DNA of 64,000 nt. Source: an uncultured Kiritimatiellota bacterium (GTDB taxonomy: Bacteria > Verrucomicrobiota > Kiritimatiellia > RFP12 > DVOR01). Under the pieces are notes generated by a model. That model searched no databases. It saw nothing but the letters and a program-made list of their open reading frames with translations, and was not told the origin of the DNA. The stretch lies in contig CALXSE010000012.1 of NCBI GenBank assembly GCA_944391085.1, forward strand, positions 1 through 64,000, written 5' to 3'. This document shows positions 3,315 to 57,746 of the stretch, piece by piece. Position 1 is the stretch's first letter; each line of letters starts with the position of its first letter. The position numbers and the translations under genes were made by a program.

Positions 3315-5413
3315 CCCTCGGCCAACGCCCGCGCCAGGGCCGTCCAGGCGAAGCGGCGGCGGGCGTCCTCGAAGAGCGGGGCGAAGCGGGCCTCGCGCCC
3401 GGCCTCGTCCATCGTGGCGAAGCGGCGCAGGGCGTCGGCGATCGCCTCCGCGGAGACCGCCACCCAAAACTCCCCCAGCTCCTGCCACGGCGCCCCCTGC
3501 GTGCAGATCACCGGCGTGTGGCACCACAACGCCTCCGCCACCACGATGCCGAAGTTCTCCGAGCGCGTCGGCAGCACCAGGCAGGCGGCGGCCTTCAGCG
3601 CGCGCGCCTTGTCCGCGCCGAGGAGCGGGCCGGGCGTCTCGACGCCGGGCCCGCGCGGCGCCTCCGCGCCGTCCGCCGGACCGGCCACGACAAGCCGCCA
3701 GCCCTCCCGCGCCAACCCGCTCTGCGCCCACGCCTCGGTCAGCAGGTCAAGCCCCTTGAGCGGGTGGAGCCGCCCCAGATAAAGGAAGGTCTTTTCGCGC
3801 GGGACTTCCGGGACTGAATCGAGCAGGGCGCCGTCCACGCCGTTGGGGATGACGCGGATGGGCGGGCACCGCCGCCCCAGCGCGGCGCGCAGCCACTTTG
3901 CCTCAGTCTCCGCCGTCGCGTGAAGCCATGCGGCGTTTCGCAGGACATGACGGTCGAAGAGCGCCCAGGCCAAACCCTTGCGAAGCCGCCCGTAGGCCCG
4001 GCGGACGGGGTCGAGGCAACCGTGTGGCGCCAGCGCGTACGGCACGCCATGGAAGCGGGCGAGCGCCGCCGCCCACCACACCGGGAAGGTCCAGCACGAA
4101 TAAATGCGCACCGCGCTGGCCCGTCGCACCAGGCGCGGCAACGTTTTCAGCAGCGGCCACGAAAAGTAAAGCGCATGGGGACGCGAGCGCGGGAAGACCC
4201 ATACCGTCGCCCCCGCGCGCCGGCAGGCGCGCACGATTGGGTGCTCGGCCTGCCCGCCCAGGAACGCGAGCGTCACACGGAGCCCCTGGCGCGCTTGCGC
4301 CAGCACCGTCTGCGCCACCGATTCCGAGACGCCGCCGCCGTCGGCCCAGCACCCCGCCACGACGTGCAGCAGGTGCCGCGGGGGCGTCCACACCTCCCCG
4401 AACCCCTCCAGCCGACGGACAAGCGCCGCCGCGAGGCGGGCCGGCGCGGTGGCCGCGAGCGGCGCGGGGTCGGGCCGCAGCGCGGGCGCGTCCGCCATCG
4501 CCTGGGTCAACGCCTTGACGTCCCCGGGCGGCACGATGAAGCCGTTGCGGCCGGGGCGGATCAGCGGCTCGGCGGCGCCGCAGGTCTGCGTGGCGATGAG
4601 CGTCAGCCCCGCGCGGGCGTATTCGGCGAGGGCCATGCCCCAGCCGTCGAAACGGCTTGGCAGGATGCCGCAATCGCAGTCGGCGAGCGCCTCGGCGATG
4701 CGTTCGGGCGGGCAGACGCCCCACCGCTCCACGCGCGGCAACCCCTCCAGGCAGGCCGCGAGCGGGCCGTCGCCGACGATGCGCAGGGTCGCCTCGGGGT
4801 GGGCGGGCGCGTAACCCGCCCAAGCCCGCGCCAACACGTCCGTCGCCTTGCGATGCGTCAGCGCCCCCGCGAAGACGAAACGGAAGCCCGCGTGCGGACG
4901 CGGCGCGGCGGGGGCCTCCGCCCCCGGCGTGGCATACGCCAGCTCGGCCAGTTTGCTGCGGCGCACGCCCCATCCCCGCGCCAGGTCGTCCACCGCCTCG
5001 GGGCCCAGGCCGAAGGCCGCGAGGGCGGAGCGGTTCACGAGCGCGCCGAAGAGTCGGCGCAGGGGCCACGAGCGGGCGCGCCCCTGGCTTTTCTCGGCGA
5101 TGAGCGCCCACGGCCGGCGGCGGAGGGCGCAGCGGAGGGCGTTGGCCCAGAAGACGGGGTGGGAATAGCCGCCCACCAGCACGGTGCGCGCGTCGTAGTC
5201 CGGGATGGCGCGGCGCGCGGCGCGCAGCGTCCGCACGCGGCGCTCCTGCGGCGGCAGCGCGGCGGGCTCCACCCAGCCGAGGCGCGCGCGGTAGGCGTCG
5301 TAATGGCCGAAGTAGCAGACCTCGACGTCGTGCCCCGCCGCGCGGAGCGCGTCGATGAGCGCCCGTTGGTGCGTGTTGGGGAAAACCGTCCAATAAACCA
5401 GCTTCATGGCCAT
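3311..5413 (-). CDS. Tandem two-domain GT4-family glycosyltransferase
   Basis: This protein of about 700 residues is built from two consecutive GT-B fold glycosyltransferase group 1 (GT4) modules. The first covers roughly residues 1-340 and the second begins near 345 (HLLHVVAGCWADGGGVSES). The C-terminal module has a standard EX7E motif (ENFGIVVAE); in the first module the leading Glu is replaced by Asp (DGWGMALAE). The likely role is transfer of two sugars in exopolysaccharide, LPS or glycan assembly at the inner membrane; donor and acceptor cannot be read from sequence. The frame is open back through the tRNA-Cys gene, so the start is placed at ATG 5413 or 5407 (MAMKLVYW), just after the tRNA terminator. 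No good ribosome binding site is visible. Confidence 0.85.
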   Translation of the reverse strand: MAMKLVYWTVFPNTHQRALIDALRAAGHDVEVCYFGHYDAYRARLGWVEPAALPPQERRVRTLRAARRAIPDYDARTVLVGGYSHPVFWANALRCALRRRPWALIAEKSQGRARSWPLRRLFGALVNRSALAAFGLGPEAVDDLARGWGVRRSKLAELAYATPGAEAPAAPRPHAGFRFVFAGALTHRKATDVLARAWAGYAPAHPEATLRIVGDGPLAACLEGLPRVERWGVCPPERIAEALADCDCGILPSRFDGWGMALAEYARAGLTLIATQTCGAAEPLIRPGRNGFIVPPGDVKALTQAMADAPALRPDPAPLAATAPARLAAALVRRLEGFGEVWTPPRHLLHVVAGCWADGGGVSESVAQTVLAQARQGLRVTLAFLGGQAEHPIVRACRRAGATVWVFPRSRPHALYFSWPLLKTLPRLVRRASAVRIYSCWTFPVWWAAALARFHGVPYALAPHGCLDPVRRAYGRLRKGLAWALFDRHVLRNAAWLHATAETEAKWLRAALGRRCPPIRVIPNGVDGALLDSVPEVPREKTFLYLGRLHPLKGLDLLTEAWAQSGLAREGWRLVVAGPADGAEAPRGPGVETPGPLLGADKARALKAAACLVLPTRSENFGIVVAEALWCHTPVICTQGAPWQELGEFWVAVSAEAIADALRRFATMDEAGREARFAPLFEDARRRFAWTALARALAEG

Positions 5414-7634: not shown

Positions 7635-8630
7635 ATGAACGCATTCCCAGACCTCCGCCTCCGCCGCGCCCGGCGCACCCCCGGCATCCGCGCGCTGTTC
7701 GACCTTGAGATCCCCGGCCCCGCCAAGTGGTGCTGGCCGCTTTTCCTCGTGCCCGGCGCGGGCGTCAAGGCCGAGATCGCCTCCATGCCCGGCCAGTTCC
7801 ATTGGTCGGCCGACCGGATCTGCGAGGCGGTGGAGCCCGCCGTGCGCCAGGGCGTGGGCTCCGTGCTCCTCTTCGGGCAGAGCGACCGCCCCAAGGACAA
7901 CGGCGGCTCCGGCGCGTGGGACGAGCGCGGCCCCGTGCAGCAGGCCGTCCGCGCCCTCAAGCGCGCCTTCCCCCAGCTCACCGTGATGACGGATGTCTGC
8001 CTCTGCGCCTACACCAGCCACGGCCACTGCGCCCCCCTGCGCCCAGACGGCGCGCTCGACAACGACGCCGCCTGCGCCTGCCTGGCCAAGGTGGCCCTCT
8101 CGCACGCCGCCGCCGGCGCGGACGTCGTCGCCCCCTCGGCCATGATGGACGGGCAGGTCGCCGCCATCCGCGCCTCCCTGGCCGAGGACGGCTTCGACGA
8201 CACGCTCCTGATGGCCTACTCCACCAAGTTCGCCTCCGCCTGCTACGGCCCCTTCCGCGACGCCGAGGGGTCGGCCCCCACCCCGCCGCCCGGCGCCCCC
8301 GCAGACCGCAGGGGCTACCAGGCCTCGCCCGCCAACCCCCGCGCCGCGCTCCTTGAATCGGCCCTCGACGAACAGGAGGGCGCCGACCTGCTCATGGTCA
8401 AGCCCGCGCTCTTCTACACCGACATGATCGCCGCCCTCAAGGCCCGTACCCTCCTCCCCGTGGCCGCCTACAACGTCAGCGGCGAGTATGCCATGCTCAT
8501 CGCCACCGCCCGCGCCGGCTGGGGCGACCTGCGCGACCTCGTGCGCGAGAGCGCCCTTGCCCTCACCCGTGCCGGCGCCGACCTCATCATCTCCTACTGG
8601 GCCAACCGGTATGACGAGCTCCTCGCCTGA
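7635..8630 (+). CDS. hemB: Delta-aminolevulinic acid dehydratase (porphobilinogen synthase)
   Basis: HemB condenses two 5-aminolevulinate molecules to porphobilinogen in tetrapyrrole synthesis. The 331-residue protein has both Schiff-base lysines, in MAYSTKFAS (Lys198) and LMVKPALFY (Lys256). It also has the zinc-type cysteine cluster DVCLCAYTSHGHC, so it is the Zn-dependent rather than the Mg-dependent type. The open frame extends far upstream through antisense sequence, but homology starts near MNAFPDLRLRR. ATG 7635 fits the -10 box; ATG 7629 would lie before the predicted transcription start. The recombinase gene overlaps its end by 20 nt. No other heme genes are in the window. Confidence 0.95.
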   Translation: MNAFPDLRLRRARRTPGIRALFDLEIPGPAKWCWPLFLVPGAGVKAEIASMPGQFHWSADRICEAVEPAVRQGVGSVLLFGQSDRPKDNGGSGAWDERGPVQQAVRALKRAFPQLTVMTDVCLCAYTSHGHCAPLRPDGALDNDAACACLAKVALSHAAAGADVVAPSAMMDGQVAAIRASLAEDGFDDTLLMAYSTKFASACYGPFRDAEGSAPTPPPGAPADRRGYQASPANPRAALLESALDEQEGADLLMVKPALFYTDMIAALKARTLLPVAAYNVSGEYAMLIATARAGWGDLRDLVRESALALTRAGADLIISYWANRYDELLA

Positions 8631-9558
8631 CGCCCTTGCCCGCGACCTCGAGGCCTTCCTCGACGCCGCACAATACGCCCGCGGCCTCAGCCCCGCCACG
8701 CGCCAGGCCTACGCCAACGCCCTCGGCGCCCTGCTCCAAGACCTCCGCCGCCAGGGCCTCGACGCCTGGCCCCGCGTCGACGCCGCCGTCCTCGCGGCGC
8801 ACCTCCGCCGCCTCCAAGAGGCCCGCGGCTACGCCCCCGCCACCCTCGCCCAGCACACCGCCGCCATCCGCGCCCTCTTCGGCTGGCTCCTCGAGCAGGG
8901 CCGCATCCAAACCTCCCCGCTCGACGCCCTCCCCCCGGCCAAGCGCCCCAAGCGCCTCCCCAAGACCCTCCCCGAGGGCGAACTCAACCGCCTGATCGAG
9001 GCCGTCGACGGCGACGACCCGCAGTCCTTGCGCGACCGCGCCGCCCTGGAGCTACTCTACGGCTGCGGCCTGCGCTGCGCCGAGCTCTGCGGCCTGACCC
9101 TCCACGACGCCGACCTCGCCGGGCGCACCCTCCGCGTCCGCGGCAAGGGCGCCAAGGAGCGCGTCGTCCCCTACGGCCCCCCCGCCCACGCCGCGCTCCT
9201 GCGCTGGCTCCGTGCCCGCGAGCGTTTTGCCCTAACCTACAAGAAAGGCGTCCTGGCGGCCGACCTGCTGGCGCCGACGGCGCCTCTCCTGCTCTCCCCC
9301 ACCGGGCGGCGGCTGGGGCGCCCCGCCCTCGCGGCCCTCGTCCACCGGCGCATCCACGCCTTCCTCCCCGAGGGCGTCCAGGCCACCCCGCACACCCTCC
9401 GCCACGCCTACGCCACCCACCTGCTCGAGCACGGCGCGCCGCTCATGGACATCCGCCAGCTCCTCGGGCACGCCTCCGTCTCCACCACCCAGCTCTACAC
9501 CCACGTCGCCCCCGGCCGCCTCCGCGCCGCCTTCGACGCCGCCTTCCCCCGCAGCTGA
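8611..9558 (+). CDS. Tyrosine recombinase of the XerC/XerD type
   Basis: A 315-residue tyrosine recombinase. The N-terminal SAM-like core-binding domain (residues about 10-95) begins FLDAAQYARGLSPATRQAY. The catalytic domain carries Arg155 (GCGLRCAEL), Lys in GKGAKE, HTLRH, LGHAS and the nucleophile Tyr296 (STTQLYTH). Length and order fit chromosomal dimer-resolving XerC/XerD, but XerC and XerD cannot be separated here, and a different site-specific role is possible. The ATG overlaps the hemB end, so translation is probably coupled. It is the only recombinase in the window, which matters for the inverted repeats at 47.6-57.6 kb. Confidence 0.9.
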   Translation: MTSSSPDALARDLEAFLDAAQYARGLSPATRQAYANALGALLQDLRRQGLDAWPRVDAAVLAAHLRRLQEARGYAPATLAQHTAAIRALFGWLLEQGRIQTSPLDALPPAKRPKRLPKTLPEGELNRLIEAVDGDDPQSLRDRAALELLYGCGLRCAELCGLTLHDADLAGRTLRVRGKGAKERVVPYGPPAHAALLRWLRARERFALTYKKGVLAADLLAPTAPLLLSPTGRRLGRPALAALVHRRIHAFLPEGVQATPHTLRHAYATHLLEHGAPLMDIRQLLGHASVSTTQLYTHVAPGRLRAAFDAAFPRS

Positions 9559-9619: not shown

Positions 9620-10282
9620 TTACGCCGCGCGGCGGCGAAGCGCCACGCCGGCCACGCCGAGGGCGAGCAGCGCCAGCGCCGTCGGCTCGGGGACGACCGT
9701 CCCATCCACGGAGGAGCGCTGCGCGAGGTCGTAGATGTCCTCGCCTTCTTCCGCGGTGTAGACGGAGGCGTTGGTAAGCGAGAGTCCGTAGGTGGCCATC
9801 GCGTCGTTGACGACAAGGGTGGTGATGGGGGCGCCCAAATCGGTCTGAAGCGTCAGCTCGCCGACCTTGGTACCGCCCACGTACAGCGTGACCTTGGAGG
9901 CGCTGTCCCGCTGGTCGACGACCATGGAGATGGAATACTTGTTGTTGGGGCCGACGACCGCGGAGGTCGCTTGCGCGTCCTCGCTCGTGTTGCTGGCGCC
10001 TTTGGCCCAGAACTTGAGTATGCCTCTCTGACTAGCGTCCGTGTTCTTGGCCACCTTGATGTAGTTGGCGGTCGCGCCGGTCCCGGCGCCAAAGCGGAAG
10101 AGATCCTGGCCGTTTGCGCCCGGCACGGTGAGGGTGGCCGTGAGGGCGAAGACCGAGCCGTCGCCGAAGCTGCCGATGGTCTGGTTTCCGGTGACGGACT
10201 CCTGCTGCCAACTGATGTTCACCGCCTGGGCGGCGGAGAGGGCAAGCGCGGCGAAGGCCGCGGTGAGAACTGTTTTCTTCAT
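9620..10282 (-). CDS. PEP-CTERM sorting-domain exported protein
   Basis: A 220-residue exported protein of unknown function. The N-terminal signal peptide is MKKTVLTAAFAALALSAAQA. A beta-rich body contains SISMVVDQRDSASKVTLYV, reminiscent of a concanavalin/LamG-like fold. The C-terminus is a classical PEP-CTERM tail: VPEP, a short hydrophobic helix TALALLALGVAGVAL and RRR. In other bacteria such tails are processed by an exosortase/archaeosortase system during export of surface or matrix proteins; no exosortase gene is in the window. The start is the ATG of the signal peptide, with GGAGG about 12 nt upstream. The body resembles the PEP-CTERM protein at 33831-34490. Confidence 0.85.
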   Translation of the reverse strand: MKKTVLTAAFAALALSAAQAVNISWQQESVTGNQTIGSFGDGSVFALTATLTVPGANGQDLFRFGAGTGATANYIKVAKNTDASQRGILKFWAKGASNTSEDAQATSAVVGPNNKYSISMVVDQRDSASKVTLYVGGTKVGELTLQTDLGAPITTLVVNDAMATYGLSLTNASVYTAEEGEDIYDLAQRSSVDGTVVPEPTALALLALGVAGVALRRRAA

Positions 10283-10613
10283 GATGAGGGGATGCCTCCT
10301 ACTCGCCCCGAGGATGAACGGAGGCGGGCATGGGGGCGAAAACGTGCCCGCTTCCGATGTTAACCTCGAGGTCTTAGGAAACCTTGCTTGAGACAACGGA
10401 GCGGGCACGCGATGGTGCGTGCGCGCCACATCGGACATCAAGCGTGAAAGTTCCTAAGTTTCGAGGCTTGTCCTTGTGCATTCGCACAGTTCGGTTGCCG
10501 TGGCTCTCCCACGACGTGCCTTTTAGGATACACCTTTTGGGCATCTCCGCGCAAGTCTTTTTTGGCAGGCGGCGGGCCGCCGCGGGGCGGGGGAGGTCAG
10601 GCGGGGCATGGGC
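10283..10613. other. Intergenic region between PEP-CTERM gene and rpoC
   Basis: No convincing gene is seen. An open frame of about 90 codons on the plus strand has no family features or ribosome binding site. The region should hold the promoter of the PEP-CTERM gene (minus strand), but no clear -35/-10 pair stands out. Confidence 0.5.
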
Positions 10614-47633: not shown

Positions 47634-47661
47634 AAACGCCCCTTTGTTTGCCGCCGTCGAA
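47634..47661 (+). repeat. Putative recombination site A
   Basis: A 28-bp sequence starting AAACGCCCCTTTGTTTGCCG and ending GTCGAA, identical to parts of the sites at 53869, 54560 and 57558. It encodes NAPLFAAVE in the VGY protein frame. The flank to the left is a C/A-only tract. Confidence 0.8.
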
Positions 47662-48321
47662 AGCGACATCGTCGGCTACACCCAGATCGAATTGAAAGAG
47701 GGCCTCAATTTGGTTGCCTGTTCTTTTGAACCACTTCAGGCATCTGAGGGGGCAGACATCCAAGACTTCTTGAAGGGGGCGTTTGAGTACAATGACACGG
47801 TCTTGTTCTATGGCCCGTCTGGATACACGACCTATTATTATACGCCTGCGCTTTGGGGAAAAGACTGGGAGGAGCTGGGAATCGCTGGATGGGGTGATGC
47901 CAACGAACAAATCGTATCTCGTCAGATGGCGGCTGGGGACGCTTTTTGGCTTGAGGTGAAAACGGCAAAGACTATTACCATTGCTGGGAAAGTTCGCCTT
48001 ATTGATCAAACCATTCAATGCCAACCTGGCCTTGGGCTGGTTGCCGCGGCGTTTCCCATTGACATTGACTTGAGCAAGGATGTTGAATTCTCTGGGTTCA
48101 CGAAGAATGACCAGCTCATGGTTTATGCTGACGACGGAAACTATGAGACTTATTCGTATAGTACGAACTTATACGATTCGGAATGGAATGAGACAGGGAA
48201 GCCAGGGTGGGGCGATCTCAATGAACAGGCTGTTGAGATAAAGATTCCTCGAAACACTTCTTTCTGGGTTTCCGTTGCCAATCCGGCCACAATCACCATA
48301 AAGTCTCCCCTTTCCAAGTAA
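47634..48321 (+). pseudogene. Cassette A: silent VGY-type exported protein gene without start
   Basis: The frame encodes about 228 residues starting at the shared site (NAPLFAAVESDIVGYTQIE). It has two internal repeats of about 100 residues, each ending in a pattern such as NEQIV...AFWLEV...TITI, consistent with tandem beta-sandwich domains. No in-frame start codon with a signal peptide precedes it; upstream is a C-rich tract antisense to yajC. It resembles the complete copy at 54510. I read it as a silent cassette able to be joined to an expression site by recombination. The PEP-CTERM gene follows 34 nt downstream. Base composition is much more AT-rich than in the neighbours. Confidence 0.7.
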
Positions 48322-48355: not shown

Positions 48356-48910
48356 ATGAAAAAGTTCTTGCTTGCAAGCCTTTTTGCGATGAGCGCTTCG
48401 CTTTTGACCGCCGCTAGCGTGAACTGGAAGATTGATGCGGGGTCTATCATGGATCCGCTTGATTCGTCGGAGCGTCTTTCAGGTGCACTTATTGTCTTGG
48501 TGCAGGGAAACAATGCCACAGCAGAGAGCGTCTATTCTGCTATTGTTGAAGCGGGAACGACATGGACTTACGATGATATCGCCGCCACGACTTCAACGTC
48601 GCTCCCGACAGGAGGCCGTGGAGATACATATGTCAGCGACGTCCTGACCGCAGGGGAAAGCTACGACTTTTTCGTCATTGTCTTTGACAAATCGACCGTG
48701 GAAGCTTCCTCTTATTTCTTGATTAGTTCCATTGCCGAAAGCATCTCGGCCGGGGAGGGCATTGAGACCCCAGGGACGGCAGGATGGGACTTGACCGGGA
48801 TTATGAGCGGTGTTACGGAAGGTTGGCAACCGATTCCCGAGCCCACTTCGCTCGCGCTGCTGGCGCTGGGCGTGGCGGGGGTGGCGCTTCGCCGGAAGGT
48901 GAGAGCGTAA
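48356..48910 (+). CDS. PEP-CTERM exported protein of cassette A
   Basis: A 184-residue protein with signal peptide MKKFLLASLFAMSASLLTAA, a body with NWKIDAG near the start and a GESYDFFVIVFDK strand, and a tail IPEP, helix TSLALLALGVAGVAL, RRK. The same two-gene order (VGY gene, PEP-CTERM gene) occurs in cassettes B, C and D. The body aligns in pattern with the other three cassette PEP-CTERM proteins. AGGA is the ribosome binding site. It probably depends on the cassette promoter, so it may be silent as placed. Confidence 0.78.
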   Translation: MKKFLLASLFAMSASLLTAASVNWKIDAGSIMDPLDSSERLSGALIVLVQGNNATAESVYSAIVEAGTTWTYDDIAATTSTSLPTGGRGDTYVSDVLTAGESYDFFVIVFDKSTVEASSYFLISSIAESISAGEGIETPGTAGWDLTGIMSGVTEGWQPIPEPTSLALLALGVAGVALRRKVRA

Positions 48911-49392: not shown

Positions 49393-50136
49393 ATGAACTC
49401 TCAACAGGGAAAACCAATTAAACGGACTTATTGTGCTGGACGAAAAGGTGAGGCAGATCGTCTAAGCTTGAGGGACATTCAGGAGGTGTTGTGGGCGGGG
49501 CGGGAGCTGGAACTGAATTCGCAGTGGCAACGGTCAATCTTGCTAGGAACGTTTCTGGCATTGGCGTATGCGGGCTATGGTATGCTGATGGTACAGGAGC
49601 GGGCGCGAGAGTTATTGTTAAACTCTCAGCTTATTCATTGGCAGGCATTGGGGATTGCACTCTTTGGGATGGTGTTTGCTTATCTTTGGATTTGCATGGC
49701 GAAGGGATCGAAAGCTTGGTATGAGATGTATGAGGACATGATTTCCCTCTATGGGGAATTGATTGTCGGAACAGAACAGGGAGAGGAGTCGCAACGGAGT
49801 CACATCGTCAAAACGTTTGCCGGTTTCAACCATTGGCAACATCCTGGTTTCAAGAAAAGCAACGAATCGCATGCACGGGATACTTACTGCTTGTCCACCG
49901 AACAGGGCAGGTTTTCGCCCTCTAGAATCAATATTGCAGTTGGGATTGTCTCTTTGGTTATCTGGGTGACGCTGGCACTGCTTCATATCTTGTGCATCGA
50001 TACGGGGCTTCGACAGAGTATTGTCTGGTTGCTCCGGAGTGGCGTGGCGATTGGTATTGCGGCGGCCCTTTTAAGCTTTGTCTTGGGTGCAATCTTCTTG
50101 CTTCTTAGTAGAAGTATCAAGAGTTCTACCTTATAA
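49393..50136 (+). CDS. Polytopic membrane protein, RipA-like
   Basis: A 247-residue protein with four predicted membrane helices in two pairs: near residues 50-65 (SILLGTFLALAYAGYGML), 85-103 (ALGIALFGMVFAYLWICM), 183-203 and 220-240. The segments ELNSQWQRSILLGTF and MAKGSKAWYEMYE recall the RipA-family octameric membrane proteins, from memory. The function of that family is unclear. GGAG precedes the ATG. Confidence 0.55.
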   Translation: MNSQQGKPIKRTYCAGRKGEADRLSLRDIQEVLWAGRELELNSQWQRSILLGTFLALAYAGYGMLMVQERARELLLNSQLIHWQALGIALFGMVFAYLWICMAKGSKAWYEMYEDMISLYGELIVGTEQGEESQRSHIVKTFAGFNHWQHPGFKKSNESHARDTYCLSTEQGRFSPSRINIAVGIVSLVIWVTLALLHILCIDTGLRQSIVWLLRSGVAIGIAAALLSFVLGAIFLLLSRSIKSSTL

Positions 50137-50165
50137 TCGCGCAGTACGTTCCTAATCTCTAGTAA

Positions 50166-50183
50166 CGTGCGCGAATTCGCACG
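50166..50183 (+). terminator. Possible terminator hairpin
   Basis: Stem CGTGCG / CGCACG with loop CGAATT after the membrane protein gene. It lacks a T run, so the assignment is weak. Confidence 0.35.
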
Positions 50184-50200
50184 AAACCGCGGGGACTGGG

Positions 50201-50550
50201 CTAAATCGGTTGTTCATAAGAACGCCCCCGGCGGATGCCGGGGGCTCTTGCACGAATGAAGTATGGCACGAGCGGTTGTTGGCCGCCTACTTGTTGAAGA
50301 CTTGGTTGTGTGAGCATGAGGATGAGGGCATCGCCTTCGACTTGGTAGACGAGCAAGAGGTCGCCACGTAGATGCAACTCTCGCCACATCTTCAGATTGT
50401 TACCCAACGCATGGTCGCGATAAGAGGGCAGGGAGGTTGACGACCGTTGACAAGCCACCGCACCGCGTCCGCCACCAAGCGGCCGTCAAGTCCATTGGCA
50501 AGCAACTTCTTCAGCGCCTTCGCGAAGCGCTTCGTCTCGACAATGCGCAT
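50201..50550 (-). pseudogene. Frameshifted RelE/YafQ-type toxin gene
   Basis: The first frame starts MRIVETKRFAKALKKLLANGLDGRL, as in YafQ/RelE toxins. The second frame continues with SLPSYRDHALGNNLKMWRELHLRGDLLLVYQ, the conserved toxin core. The two are joined only by a one-base frame change near 50430. The C-terminus runs through the GGAT-loop hairpin and ends in an atypical tail instead of the usual short basic/aromatic end. The gene is therefore probably inactive unless the shift is a sequencing error or is programmed. Its ATG overlaps the antitoxin stop. Confidence 0.65.
50224..50245. terminator. GGAT-loop hairpin
   Basis: Stem GCCCCCGGC / GCCGGGGGC with loop GGAT, the same core as at 9569. 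It lies inside the 3' end of the frameshifted toxin frame. Confidence 0.75.
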
Positions 50551-50792
50551 CACGCAATCCCGTGGGCGCGGAGGAAGTCGTCCGCGGAAGCATAAGTCGT
50601 GGTTTCGCCGCGATCCACTTCGTGAAGGGCCTGAATGGCCTCTTCGGACAACCGGCGCACGACGTAATGGCCGTTCCCCAAATCCTCCAACGTCAAACCT
50701 TCAGATTCCAACTCCAAATCCCGCACAAGCGGAATCTGCGCAGACTTTCGCCAAGACTCCCCAGGCGCCCCAAAGCGGCGAACCTCACTCAT
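50550..50792 (-). CDS. Antitoxin-like small protein
   Basis: An 80-residue acidic protein (SEEAIQALHEVDRGETTTYASADDFLRAHGIA) lying directly before a RelE/YafQ-like toxin with overlapping TGATG. The C-terminal pattern (ALxEVDxGExxxYxSxDDFLR) is typical of RelB/DinJ-like or related antitoxins that bind the toxin. It overlaps the upstream 59-residue gene by 4 nt. It is intact, unlike the toxin. Confidence 0.65.
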   Translation of the reverse strand: MSEVRRFGAPGESWRKSAQIPLVRDLELESEGLTLEDLGNGHYVVRRLSEEAIQALHEVDRGETTTYASADDFLRAHGIA

Positions 50793-52680: not shown

Positions 52681-53244
52681 TTACACTCTTCTCCGCAGAG
52701 CCACCCCCGCGACACCAAGGGCGAGCAACGCCAACGCCGTCGGCTCGGGGACAATCTTCTGCCAACCTCCAGACGTAGCAACCAAGGAGGCTCCGTCCGT
52801 CCAAACAATCTCGGAAGGTTCCGCCGCACCATTCTCATCAAAAGGAATTCCAGAGATAACAGAACTTACCGCAACATAGCCACGCGTTGCATCGAACAAG
52901 ACGAGATAAAACTCGTAAGTGGTTCCGGCGTGGATCGCATCAGAGAAGATGGTAGAATCTCCAGCAGGGATAGTTCCAATGAGCGTCAAGTTTTTCACCA
53001 TTGCACTATTACCTTCACCAATGGTAGGAGCACTCCACTCCATTCCACTGGAAATTTGCTGAAAGGTTTGCATGGCATCATCTTGCCCGCCAATGCAAAG
53101 ATATGCAATGTATTGCGTGATGTCATCGTCGGCCGAAATAGGCGGCACGGATGCTGTCGGCACGCCTGAGCCCCACGTGATTGCTGCGGCAAAACAAAGC
53201 TGTGCACAAGCAACAGCGATGGTTGTAATCACAAAACGCTTCAT
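52681..53244 (-). CDS. PEP-CTERM exported protein of cassette B
   Basis: A 187-residue protein with signal peptide MKRFVITTIAVACAQLCFA, mature start AITWGSG, strands such as GTTYEFYLVLFDATRGYV, and tail VPEP, helix TALALLALGVAGVAL, RRRV. It follows the silent VGY gene of cassette B by 21 nt, with AAAGGA as ribosome binding site. It is homologous in pattern to the other cassette PEP-CTERM proteins. Expression is expected only when the promoter segment faces cassette B. Confidence 0.8.
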   Translation of the reverse strand: MKRFVITTIAVACAQLCFAAAITWGSGVPTASVPPISADDDITQYIAYLCIGGQDDAMQTFQQISSGMEWSAPTIGEGNSAMVKNLTLIGTIPAGDSTIFSDAIHAGTTYEFYLVLFDATRGYVAVSSVISGIPFDENGAAEPSEIVWTDGASLVATSGGWQKIVPEPTALALLALGVAGVALRRRV

Positions 53245-53265: not shown

Positions 53266-53902
53266 TTACTTTTGAGGGAGTTGGAACGTTACAGAAATCC
53301 CTTCGTTTTTCGTGGTAAGCCATACACTAGCTCCGACAGGGATTACTTCGGTCATCGGTTGAAACATAATACGATCCACCCAATTTCCTTTGTAGAATTG
53401 GTATGTCGTATAGATTTTACCATTGCGAATTTGCAATTGATCGCCATCCTCTAAGCCATCCCCCCAAACGATGTCATCGTTCGGATTGATTTCCGCAGGG
53501 ATATTGGCAGCTAACATTTGGATACCCTGCTTGGTCGTATACGTGTACTCGTTCGTCGGGACGGCACCTTTAAGAGTAACCTCAACAGCATGTTCAGGGG
53601 TGTTCAACCAAAAAGCGGTCCCAGGCGAAACAGGGGTTGTCGCAGGCTTAAACTCTACACGGTCAACCCATTGTCCATTATAGAAAATATAAGTCGTATA
53701 CGTTGATTTGGCGTCTTTGTTGTAAATCTGAATCTGATCATTATCAGAGAAGTCGCCAGAGACAATCTCATTCAGTGGCAGAGCTTGACCATCAAGCCCA
53801 TTAAATACCACCCCCATCATATTGAAGCCCGGATTCGTCGTGATGGTGGTGTAGCCGACGACGTCGGATTCGACGGCGGCAAACAAAGGGGCGTTTAAAA
53901 GT
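53266..53902 (-). pseudogene. Cassette B: silent VGY-type exported protein gene without start
   Basis: The frame starts at the shared site ([20 protein letters not shown]) and encodes about 211 residues. The two halves each contain a DQ(I/L)QI...TTY.FY.G.WVDR pattern, so the protein has two related beta domains. The frame is open upstream, but reads [11 protein letters not shown] with no start or signal peptide nearby. Flipping the 53903-54559 segment would join the start codon and signal peptide of copy C to this frame without a shift. A PEP-CTERM gene follows. Confidence 0.75.
53869..53902 (-). repeat. Putative recombination site B
   Basis: A 34-bp sequence on the minus strand starting ACTTTTAAACGCCCCTTTGT, identical in all 34 positions to site C (54560-54593) but inverted. 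The outer flank CCCACCCCCA is shared with site D. Confidence 0.85.
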
Positions 53903-53940
53903 GGGGGTGGGGAAATGGGCTGGAGGCATTGGGAGAGTAA

Positions 53941-53971
53941 GGCGCAAAGGTGTTTTTTGCGGGGTTGCGCC
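53941..53971 (-). repeat. Dispersed hairpin element, copy 2
   Basis: Minus strand GGCGCAACCCCGCAAAAAA ... TTTGCGCC, sharing 18 identical bases with 34600-34636. Confidence 0.5.
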
Positions 53972-54377
53972 TTGGGGGATGGCGGGGGATTGGCGGGGAT
54001 GGCGCTCTGTTTGGATAGGTGGTTGACGGGAAATGGGTTAAGCGACAGTCTCAGATGGTGCGTGAATCGGGGAGAAAGTGTGGTTTTGCGCAAAAGTGGC
54101 GGGTTTGGGGCTTTTTCGGGGTCAAAAGTGGGGGTGAAGCGGCTTTATAAGAGGGGATGGGAGACGGGGATGATTTGGGTGGCAGGGGCTGCCGAAGGAG
54201 CCGCCCGTGGGGTGCACAGGGCGCCAAAGGTGGTGCGTCTGCGAAAAGGCATAAGTCACGGTCGCCGCCGAAGCGGTAGTAAGTGGTCGGGGGCCGTTGA
54301 CTAGGCAGGCGGCGGCGGGGGACTTGGCGGGAGGAAGGTGGGCAAAGGGGGCGGTTCTCTCCGGGAAAACTTTTTTG

Positions 54378-54407
54378 TTGCGAAAGAAAGAAGACTTGTG
54401 GTAATCT
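54378..54407 (+). promoter_or_regulatory. Candidate promoter of the expressed cassette
   Basis: TTGCGA -35 box, 18-bp spacer and TAATCT -10 box with an upstream TG. The leader of about 95 nt contains the hairpin GCTTCT-GAAA-AGAAGC (54420-54435) and a GGAG before ATG 54510. Confidence 0.5.
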
Positions 54408-54509
54408 TGTGTCGTTGGTGCTTCTGAAAAGAAGCGTGAAATGTCCAACAGAAATCGCCGGAAGGGTTGATTTTATCGGCTTGGAAGGCAACGGCTGGAG
54501 TAAACGGAC

Positions 54510-55238
54510 ATGACGACAAGGACTTTGCTCACTGGCGCGACAGTGCTGTCAAGCCTGCTACTTTTAAACGCCCCTTTGTTTGCCGCCGTCGAAAGCGACG
54601 TGGTGGGATATGCGAAAGTGCCGGTTGAAAACATTGGATATGATATTGTGGCGGTTCCATTCGCCACGTTGTCTGACGGGGTCGTGGACGGTGTCTTTCC
54701 CATTCAAGAAATCGAGGGGACGCTTTCGCAAAACAATCGCGAGACGTTCGCTGACAAGCTGATGACTTTGGATCCGGTAACGAAGCAGTACACGACGTAC
54801 ATTTACAAATCCGTCGGTTGGGTCAAGGAGGGAGAAACGGAAGCGACGAAGGATGTGGTTTCGCCTGGGATGGGGCTGTTCTTCAGCAAAGCCCGGCAGG
54901 CGGGCGAAATCGTCGTTTCTGGGAAGGTGGATGATGCTGAAACCGTTTCTATCCCATTGGAAGTCGGGTTCAATTTGGTAAGCAATCCTTATCCTGCGGC
55001 CATCAAGATTGCCGATCTTCAAGGCGAGTTGTCCGCCAACGATCGTTTGAGCTTCGCAGATAGCATTATGGTTCTTGACCCGGTCACAAAACGATACTCC
55101 ACGTATTACTTGAAGAAGGCTGGATGGATCAAAGAGGGGGAGGCCGACCCTACGGAAGATGTTATAAATGCTTGCCAAGGTTTTTATTTCACAAAGGTGC
55201 GGACTGCCGGGACGGTGGAGTTCAAGCGCCCCTACTAA
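54510..55238 (+). CDS. Cassette C: complete VGY-type exported protein
   Basis: A 242-residue exported protein, the only one of four paralogs with a start codon and full signal peptide (MTTRTLLTGATVLSSLLLLN, cleavage near FAA-VES). The mature part has two tandem repeats of about 100 residues, seen in FADKLMTLDPVTKQYTTY...GWVKEGE and FADSIMVLDPVTKRYSTY...GWIKEGE. The domains look like beta sandwiches; function is unknown but a surface or matrix role is likely. The shared recombination site covers the end of the signal peptide, so exchanges preserve the leader. The PEP-CTERM gene follows 21 nt downstream. Confidence 0.82.
   Translation: MTTRTLLTGATVLSSLLLLNAPLFAAVESDVVGYAKVPVENIGYDIVAVPFATLSDGVVDGVFPIQEIEGTLSQNNRETFADKLMTLDPVTKQYTTYIYKSVGWVKEGETEATKDVVSPGMGLFFSKARQAGEIVVSGKVDDAETVSIPLEVGFNLVSNPYPAAIKIADLQGELSANDRLSFADSIMVLDPVTKRYSTYYLKKAGWIKEGEADPTEDVINACQGFYFTKVRTAGTVEFKRPY
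54560..54593 (+). repeat. Putative recombination site C
   Basis: The 34-bp sequence starting ACTTTTAAACGCCCCTTTGT, inside the coding sequence for [11 protein letters not shown]. It is identical to sites B and D, which are inverted relative to it. Confidence 0.85.
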
Positions 55239-55259
55239 TTGTTTAGAAAGGTAATGACA

Positions 55260-55841
55260 ATGAAACGTATTCTTCTTCTTTCCGTTCTCGCCTTCGGGTT
55301 TTCGGCCTCCGCGCTGGCCGCATCCATCACATGGGGATCCTCCGCGGACACCTTTTATGGCTATGATGGCAAAGCCTTCTCCACGGGATCTGCGTTCCTT
55401 TATCTGGTCGATGCCTCGGTTCCGCACTCCTTTACGTATTCAGAAGAGACCGGTTGGCAAATCTCGGGGGCGACGTTTGTCGCCAGTGCCTCTGATTTGA
55501 TGGCCTCGGGTTACTTCGAAGCCACAACAACGGTTGATTATGATACGCAATACAAGCCGAATAAAGGTGGAACAGAAAACACGAATTTCTATGTGGTGGT
55601 CATCACGTCCAAGACCGGTTCGGTTCTGACGGATATCACGGACGGATATTATCTCGTCTCAGATGCCTTCTACGTTGATAATTTTGGGACTCTTGGAGGC
55701 GAACCTATCGAAAACTCTCGCGGCGAAGGTTACTTCAATGCCGACGGCTCTTCCGGTTGGCAACCCGTCCCGGAGCCGACGGCGTTGGCGTTGCTTGCCC
55801 TTGGCGTGGCGGGGGTGGCCCTGCGCAGAAGAGTATGCTGA
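55260..55841 (+). CDS. PEP-CTERM exported protein of cassette C
   Basis: A 193-residue protein with signal peptide MKRILLLSVLAFGFSASALA, mature start ASITWGSS, an NTNFYVVVITSKTGSV strand and the tail VPEP, helix TALALLALGVAGVAL, RRRVC. ATG 55260 has AAAGG at 9 nt; ATG 55254 is possible but too close. Unlike the partners in A, B and D, it lies behind a complete VGY gene with a promoter. The odd C-terminal Cys differs from the usual Ala. Confidence 0.82.
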   Translation: MKRILLLSVLAFGFSASALAASITWGSSADTFYGYDGKAFSTGSAFLYLVDASVPHSFTYSEETGWQISGATFVASASDLMASGYFEATTTVDYDTQYKPNKGGTENTNFYVVVITSKTGSVLTDITDGYYLVSDAFYVDNFGTLGGEPIENSRGEGYFNADGSSGWQPVPEPTALALLALGVAGVALRRRVC

Positions 55842-56362: not shown

Positions 56363-56893
56363 TCACGCCACGCGCCGGCGAAGCGCCACCCCCGCCACGC
56401 CAAGCGCGAGCAGCGCCAGCGCCGTCGGCTCCGGGACGAGGCCAAGCGTACCTGTCGTCCAGGTCGCTCTATTTGGGCCCATCGCAGGGAAATTGACAGA
56501 GCCGTATTCTGTTCCACCGTCCGTGGAGGAGATTGAAGTGTAATCACTAAGAATGAATGTCCCATCACTTGCAAGGATAATCATGAAGACAGAGTCCGTC
56601 CCCATCGTCACCGTGAGATCATAGAGTGGGACATTGGTGAAAGTCGTTGCATCCGAAAGACTGGTGAAGCCCAACAGGTTGAAATTGTTCCCAGAATAAT
56701 CAACCCCTTGCGTTGTCAAATACGAAGCGATAGACTCCGTCGTGGGGATTTCATCAGAGGTGACCTGAATCAAATAAGCCGTTCCAGAAACGGCCCCAGA
56801 AGAGGCAAAGCCTCCTGCGCCCCATGTCACGGTCGACGCAAGCGCGGTGCCACAGAAAAGCAGCGTAACAGAGCTCAGAATCGCAAGTTTCAT
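56363..56893 (-). CDS. PEP-CTERM exported protein of cassette D
   Basis: A 176-residue protein with signal peptide MKLAILSSVTLLFCGTALA, mature start STVTWGAGG, strand MGTDSVFMIILASDGTF and tail VPEP, helix TALALLALGVAGVAL, RRRVA. A GAAGGAG ribosome binding site precedes the ATG. It lies 16 nt after the silent VGY gene of cassette D. Confidence 0.8.
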   Translation of the reverse strand: MKLAILSSVTLLFCGTALASTVTWGAGGFASSGAVSGTAYLIQVTSDEIPTTESIASYLTTQGVDYSGNNFNLLGFTSLSDATTFTNVPLYDLTVTMGTDSVFMIILASDGTFILSDYTSISSTDGGTEYGSVNFPAMGPNRATWTTGTLGLVPEPTALALLALGVAGVALRRRVA

Positions 56894-56909
56894 TTGATTG
56901 CTCCTTCGA

Positions 56910-57591
56910 TTACTTTGCCGCGGCATTGGGTTTGCAAACCCCGTTCCCGGCAGATTTCTTATACACGAAAATGGCTTGTCCAGGGTCAAGCTTCGTCACA
57001 TCCAGTTGTCCTGCATTCAAATCCCACCATCCCTCCGTCGCGCCATCCTTGTACCATGTGACAGGAGACGAGTAAGAAGACGTTTCGCTGTCATAAATAT
57101 AGGCCTCGTCCCCATCGGACATCCCCTCCCACGTCATGTCGTTCAAGGTCATTTCCGTAGGATAGACGCAGACGATTTGCGACCACGTATTAGCATTATC
57201 CCCACCGAAGAGCGTCGTTTCAGCAACGGAAACCCTGCCCTTCAAAACAACCGTTCCGGCGACAGCCTTATGGATGAAGACCGCATGTCCAGTAGGAATC
57301 TTTATGTCACTCAAAGCCCCTGCGTTGAAATCGTACCATCCCGCAGGGCTCGTAGCATCCGCATACCAATCCAACGGAGAGCCATATGCCGAATCCGCGG
57401 TATTGTAAACATACAATTGATCCCCCGTTGCGAAACCTGTGGAAAACACCTCATTCACCGTTTCGGAAGCGCCTTCTTCAAGCGCCACGAACGGGTTGCC
57501 GATTTGGTACCACTTGCCGGCCTGCATCTCGATTTGGGTGTAGCCGACGATGTCGCTTTCGACGGCGGCAAACAAAGGGGCGTTTAAAAGT
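56910..57591 (-). pseudogene. Cassette D: silent VGY-type exported protein gene without start
   Basis: The frame starts at the shared site ([21 protein letters not shown]) and codes for about 226 residues in two related halves (GDQLYVYNTADSAYGSPLDWYADA...GWYDFNAG and GDEAYIYDSETSSYSSPVTWYKDG...GWWDLNAG). No ATG with a signal peptide precedes it; upstream lies a C-rich tract on the coding strand. It shares additional bases with cassette A after the core (ATCGTCGGCTACACCCA). Inversion with site C would place it behind the C promoter. Confidence 0.75.
57558..57591 (-). repeat. Putative recombination site D
   Basis: The 34-bp sequence on the minus strand, identical to sites B and C and inverted relative to C. 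The flank CCCACCCCCA matches that of site B. Confidence 0.85.
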
Positions 57592-57746
57592 GGGGGTGGG
57601 TGGGTTGGGACATGGCGGCGGGGGCCGCTGGCTGGGGGGGCGCAGAACGTCCGTCAAACGCAAGTCCGTATGGATGGAGTCCGCGGGCGGGGGGGGGGCG
57701 GTGTTGGGGCGGGGAAGGCGCGGGGTCGGTGGCGGGGGCGGGGGTG

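Follow-up and report, generated by a model that had tools for sequence, protein, structure and literature searches.

How does a locus that carries four bodies of secreted-type proteins, and a single promoter and signal peptide to serve them, bring more than one of those bodies to expression? The locus lies in a window of 64,000 nucleotides, the whole stretch of DNA that was analysed, from the MAG (G000) of an uncultured gut bacterium of the Kiritimatiellae, a draft of 1.73 Mb. Cassettes A and C point rightward and B and D leftward, and a segment P, placed between B and C, contains the sole promoter, ribosome-binding site, ATG and signal peptide. Overall, we believe that the locus is very probably a shufflon-like surface-protein switch driven by an Mpi recombinase, in which the recombination site itself encodes the end of the signal peptide. 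Its features are as follows.

47634..47684, plus strand: site A with the first part of body A; shares 51 nt with D; neither start codon nor signal peptide upstream
47635..48321, plus strand: body A, silent; two-repeat beta-rich secreted-type domain
48356..48910, plus strand: PEP-CTERM gene after body A (TIGR02595 above cut-off)
49393..50136, plus strand: gene for an 8xMP-family membrane protein, located between A and B
50201..50792, minus strand: YafQ-type toxin gene, lying between A and B, with a small ORF upstream as putative antitoxin
52681..53244, minus strand: PEP-CTERM gene after body B
53266..53895, minus strand: body B, silent; no start codon or signal peptide
53869..53902, minus strand: site B, with the core AAACG-CC-CCTTT; identical to C over 34 nt
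53903..54559, no strand assigned: P, predicted invertible promoter and signal-peptide segment, 657 bp
54378..54407, plus strand: promoter TTGCGA-N18-TAATCT, TG-extended, aligned in 7 genomes of the genus
54510..54586, plus strand: ATG and signal peptide, the only signal peptide in the locus
54510..55238, plus strand: cassette C, the expressed form, with promoter, ATG and signal peptide joined
54560..54593, plus strand: site C, coding for the end of the signal peptide
55254..55841, plus strand: PEP-CTERM gene after body C
56363..56905, minus strand: PEP-CTERM gene after body D
56910..57587, minus strand: body D, silent; no start codon or signal peptide
57558..57592, minus strand: site D; D and B have the form CACTTTTAAACG-CC-CCTTTGT

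Each body has 209-228 codons, comprises two related beta-rich repeats and is followed by a PEP-CTERM gene. Cassettes A, B and D each lack a start, a point that the preliminary description of this DNA omitted: their frames are open from site to stop, over 200-230 codons, the sequence upstream is unrelated and often C-rich, and no start at the right distance and no signal peptide was found there. Pfam and PDB sequence searches with the cassette protein returned no family, and its structural model (pLDDT 93) matched no solved fold at E<=0.001.

The preliminary description started from sites B and C, and that pair is real: the two are identical at 34 of 34 nt, inverted and 657 nt apart. The set was incomplete, however, since sites A (47634) and D (57558) had been missed. 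The window contains four copies of a 28-nt core, all within 10 kb (starting at 47634 plus for A, 53869 minus for B, 54566 plus for C and 57558 minus for D), versus no copies expected from 100 shuffles, and none was found outside the locus in the rest of the draft genome. Identity between pairs extends to 43 nt for B/D, 40 nt for C/D and 51 nt for A/D. On its own, the short motif ARACGNNCSTYT is about as frequent in the genome as chance would give (40 occurrences versus 28 in the control), and therefore only longer or paired sites were used. All four sites lie within the codons for L-N-A-P-L-F-A-A, the end of the signal peptide; the residues at the site vary by species (NAPLFAA, NAPLSAA, LDAS, NAPLNAA, NGRLSAA) and are common to the copies within one genome.

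The ATG at 54510 stands about 17 codons upstream of site C, preceded within P by a GGAG ribosome-binding site. A sigma-70 consensus scan found no promoter; the promoter came from an alignment of this genome with six congeners, in which the signal peptide is conserved too and the promoter takes the form TTGCNN-N17/18-TACTAT, with its boxes here at 54378-54383 (TTGCGA) and 54402-54407 (TAATCT). The earlier proposal that the B/C interval holds a promoter, ribosome-binding site, ATG and some 17 signal codons is thus borne out, and so is the absence of a frame change on fusion to cassette B, because an in silico flip yields one full ORF. Its reach had been understated: inversions at C/D, and at A/B followed by B/C, likewise give one uninterrupted signal-peptide protein each, so that all four bodies are reachable.

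The mechanism that we propose can be laid out from these elements. A crossover between two oppositely oriented sites would join P to a different body together with the PEP-CTERM gene behind it, and the joining would be in frame because the sites lie within the codons for the signal-peptide end. Crossover at B/C would flip P, whereas crossover at C/D would swap bodies C and D, and crossover at A/B bodies A and B. A/C and B/D are direct repeats, so crossover within these pairs would delete DNA. In this context, the YafQ-type toxin gene could select against loss of the A-B region by such a crossover. A zeta-type toxin gene lies inside the cassette locus of G008 (L057:84-725) and, by similarity, in those of G006 and G011; perhaps toxin genes inside these loci guard against deletion between direct-repeat sites.

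The arrangement recurs across the genus. The related contigs come from gut MAGs, including those of sheep, water buffalo and roe deer, and complete multi-cassette loci are present in five of 16 congeners (G004, G006, G007, G011 and G015). Together with G000 these make six species with 3-5 cassettes each, and in each of the six a single cassette has a hydrophobic signal peptide and an ATG placed 26 codons ahead of the VESD residues; cassettes b and c of G011 have possible upstream starts that are non-conserved. The signal-peptide-bearing copies fall in three body clades, and the supported branches force at least five changes. These observations bear on the possibility that the locus is a static tandem gene family, with A, B and D as 5'-truncated pseudogenes whose identical 5' ends reflect recent duplications. 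Flips within a population are a prediction here, and some congeners, such as G016, have a single cassette, as a static family would allow. Nonetheless, the silent bodies stay open at 27-52% amino acid identity beside flanks at 97%, six species and further families of the order show the pattern of one expressed and several silent cassettes, and the inversion between species described below falls at the sites; we regard a static family as highly improbable, the least probable of the alternatives considered here.

The comparison of G000 with its nearest relative, G004, captures a rearrangement at the sites, between species. The flanks are colinear, with secDF-yajC on the left at 94.3% and ruvB on the right at 90.3% nucleotide identity, and the whole A-D interior is inverted: the 49469-50778 block (90.9%), P (72.9%) and the start of body D (94.6%) all align in the opposite orientation, and the order of the bodies and PEP-CTERM genes is reversed. 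The 8xMP-family gene between A and B, about 91% identical in the two genomes, is inverted in G004 as well. One breakpoint falls inside 47634-47690, at site A, and the other inside 57541-57597, at site D. Because P faces a C-type body in both genomes, the difference between them is an inversion of the A-D type rather than a flip at B/C. On the evidence of these alignments, inversion at the sites separates the two species; the specific B/C flip remains a prediction from the sequence of the locus. The bodies diverge unusually fast, being 27-52% identical in amino acids to their orthologues versus about 97% for the flanking proteins, and the divergence is mosaic: body D and G004a of G004 are 94.6% identical over 112 nt and then fall to about 42% at the amino acid level.

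Which enzyme would act at these sites? The most likely candidate is the one serine recombinase of G000 (G000:C3:82631-83215), which belongs to the Mpi family, scoring 291.6 bits against a cut-off of 272 for NCBIfam NF009949. Its target would be the dyad ARACG-NN-CGTYT, which lies 22 nt before VESD and marks the left edge of the site. The dyad is matched at 9 of 10 half-site positions in G000, where the right half-site CCTTT is one base off CGTYT, at 10 of 10 in G011 and at 9-10 of 10 in nearly all copies, a level (9/10) that about 1% of random windows reach; one G007 copy matches at 8 of 10. The central dinucleotide is constant per genome at cassette sites, being CC in G000, and the core matches the published Bacteroides Mpi repeat consensus, ARACGTTCGTN (PMC8375218). 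An Mpi relative is present in all six multi-cassette genomes and also in seven of 11 other congeners, so its presence alone does not separate the multi-cassette genomes. Indeed, G001, G002 and G014 have Mpi without an intact multi-cassette locus, and none was detected in G016, whose single cassette has no dyad.

A second candidate would be a tyrosine recombinase of the Xer type, the kind that acts at Mycoplasma vpma with crossover outside the coding sequence. G000 encodes two tyrosine recombinases, one of them in the window at 8488-9558, and in family f4 of the order tyrosine-recombinase-like genes lie beside or between cassettes (G019, G024 and G056). Yet the two G000 enzymes resemble the usual Xer pair in number, the window copy has XerC/XerD as its best equivalogs (with scores below their cut-offs), no relative of the f4 enzymes was found at the locus in this genus, and the site fits the Mpi dyad with its 2-bp centre. 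We therefore consider a tyrosine recombinase an improbable agent and return to the Mpi-family invertase.

The same motif flanks other invertible elements. In G000, contig C7 contains a 26-31 nt inverted repeat, perfect over 26 nt, around a TATACT promoter that separates a divergent pair of polysaccharide pyruvyl transferase genes (L128:2724-2827, G000:C7:30724-30827); there the CACTTTTAAACG-CC-CCTTTGT form of sites B and D recurs with TC as its central dinucleotide. The G004 orthologue comprises three sites together with an additional gene cassette (L133:4948-6074, G004:C16). A further inverted site pair in G004, about 60 bp apart on contig C2, adjoins a DNA adenine methylase-like gene (L132:4246-4352), and contig C3 of G015 has, among the polysaccharide genes of a single region, three exact pairs that each enclose a TTTGCTATACT promoter (L135:3070-7832). 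Each of these three invertible promoters has its own central dinucleotide, and the G015 cassette site is identical at 23 of 26 positions to one of their sites. Central dinucleotides thus agree within a locus and differ between loci, the pattern expected for a serine recombinase; in our model, CC would keep the cassette locus apart from polysaccharide-promoter invertons with other dinucleotides.

These findings also weigh on the most serious competing account, in which RecA-dependent homologous recombination or gene conversion at sites of 28-51 nt switches the cassettes and Mpi is uninvolved. Within-genome identity does run past the 26-bp site, beyond the dyad core on the body side, A and D have 51 nt in common, and bodies diverge as mosaics, as in D and G004a. 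At the same time, the invariant block begins at the dyad core and not at random, short invertible promoters of these genomes are bounded by that core as well, and 28-51 nt of identity is short for efficient RecA exchange. Gene conversion as the sole mechanism is rejected, since it does not invert unrelated genes and those in the interior are inverted too. The RecA account as a whole is in our judgement unlikely, though less so than a tyrosine recombinase. An inversion switch that moves promoter and signal peptide among cassettes, as the preliminary description proposed for B and C, is by contrast strongly supported at the sequence level, because there is a single signal-peptide copy per genome, the breakpoints between species fall at the sites, an Mpi invertase is resident, and the same site surrounds ordinary invertible promoters; the scope first given to it was too narrow, as A and D belong to the switch. 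From the same evidence we infer action of Mpi at the cassette sites, inversion within populations and a resulting change of the cell surface.

The plan may extend beyond the genus. In family f4, start-less cassettes share sites of a different sequence, specific to each genome, at the corresponding position in the protein, and a search of the f4 genome G019 found no Mpi. The f4 tyrosine-recombinase-like genes at such cassettes lie at L059:1958-4262, L064:2362-3243 and L131:2048-7673 (G019, G024 and G056). The paralogues found in G057 (family f3) each carry a signal peptide of their own. It is about an even bet that there is an order-wide Kiritimatiellae class of switch whose site codes for the signal-peptide cleavage region and whose plan is kept while the recombinase is replaced between lineages, Mpi-type serine enzymes in this genus and local tyrosine enzymes in f4.

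Among known systems, the closest in mechanism is vsa of Mycoplasma pulmonis, and the closest by enzyme and site is Bacteroides Mpi. In vsa, the expression site gives the promoter and N-terminal coding part, silent genes are promoterless at the 5' end, and site-specific inversion joins them to the expression site (PMC4534519); here, A, B and D are likewise without promoter and 5' end and intact downstream. The locus works like vsa antigen switching and is not a member of that class: vsa-like antigens are Mollicutes surface proteins whereas this host is one of the Kiritimatiellae, its protein fell into no Pfam family or PDB fold, and no homology is shown. Moreover, vsa proteins carry tandem repeats where these are two-repeat beta domains with PEP-CTERM genes after them, and the site here codes for the signal-peptide end, with a serine invertase as the likely enzyme. 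Mpi of Bacteroides fragilis is one enzyme serving several dispersed invertons, of which many lie near polysaccharide genes (PMC4747536). It is in the same recombinase family by curated threshold, with the core ARACG-NN-CGTYT and dispersed invertons in both; however, its invertons as described in the sources used here are promoters, with TT as central dinucleotide, whereas here the dinucleotide varies between loci and a site inside coding sequence would swap bodies.

The locus also has the make-up of a shufflon such as R64 pilV or Bacteroides SusC/SusD, with several inverted sites and a constant 5' part joined to alternative coding parts (four sites, four bodies and one signal peptide). In R64 pilV the variable part is the C-terminal end, whereas here everything past the signal peptide would be swapped, plus a separate downstream gene. 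The SusC/SusD shufflon uses Tsr0667 (PMC4747536). In the portions of the sources that we draw on, vpma of Mycoplasma agalactiae is a surface lipoprotein family with promoter addition by site-specific inversion (PMC11868660), a likeness to the gain of a promoter here, and Akkermansia muciniphila has invertible promoters near surface genes with PEP-CTERM genes enriched nearby (PMC11892184) and an inverton motif, CGGATT..AATCCG (PMC13343947), that differs from the cassette site; a silent cassette system is not mentioned in the Akkermansia passages. A search of the literature library used here for phase variation in Kiritimatiellae found no paper, and the surface-protein switching system looks to be previously undescribed.

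If our reading is correct, it brings protein-level phase or antigenic variation to a phylum of uncultured gut bacteria, widens the role of Mpi from the control of promoters to the swapping of entire secreted proteins, and suggests that one invertase keeps its loci apart by central dinucleotide. The site motif YTARACGNNCGTYTA offers a handle for finding Kiritimatiellae invertons. Two further observations concern the rest of the window. Another protein with the same PEP-CTERM end is encoded outside the locus at 9620-10441 on the minus strand. In addition, a glycosyltransferase stretch at 4651-5411 is 97% identical in nucleotides to L050:1-761, which adjoins the G007 cassette locus; the stretch common to the two is far more similar than the rest, possibly as a result of recent transfer.
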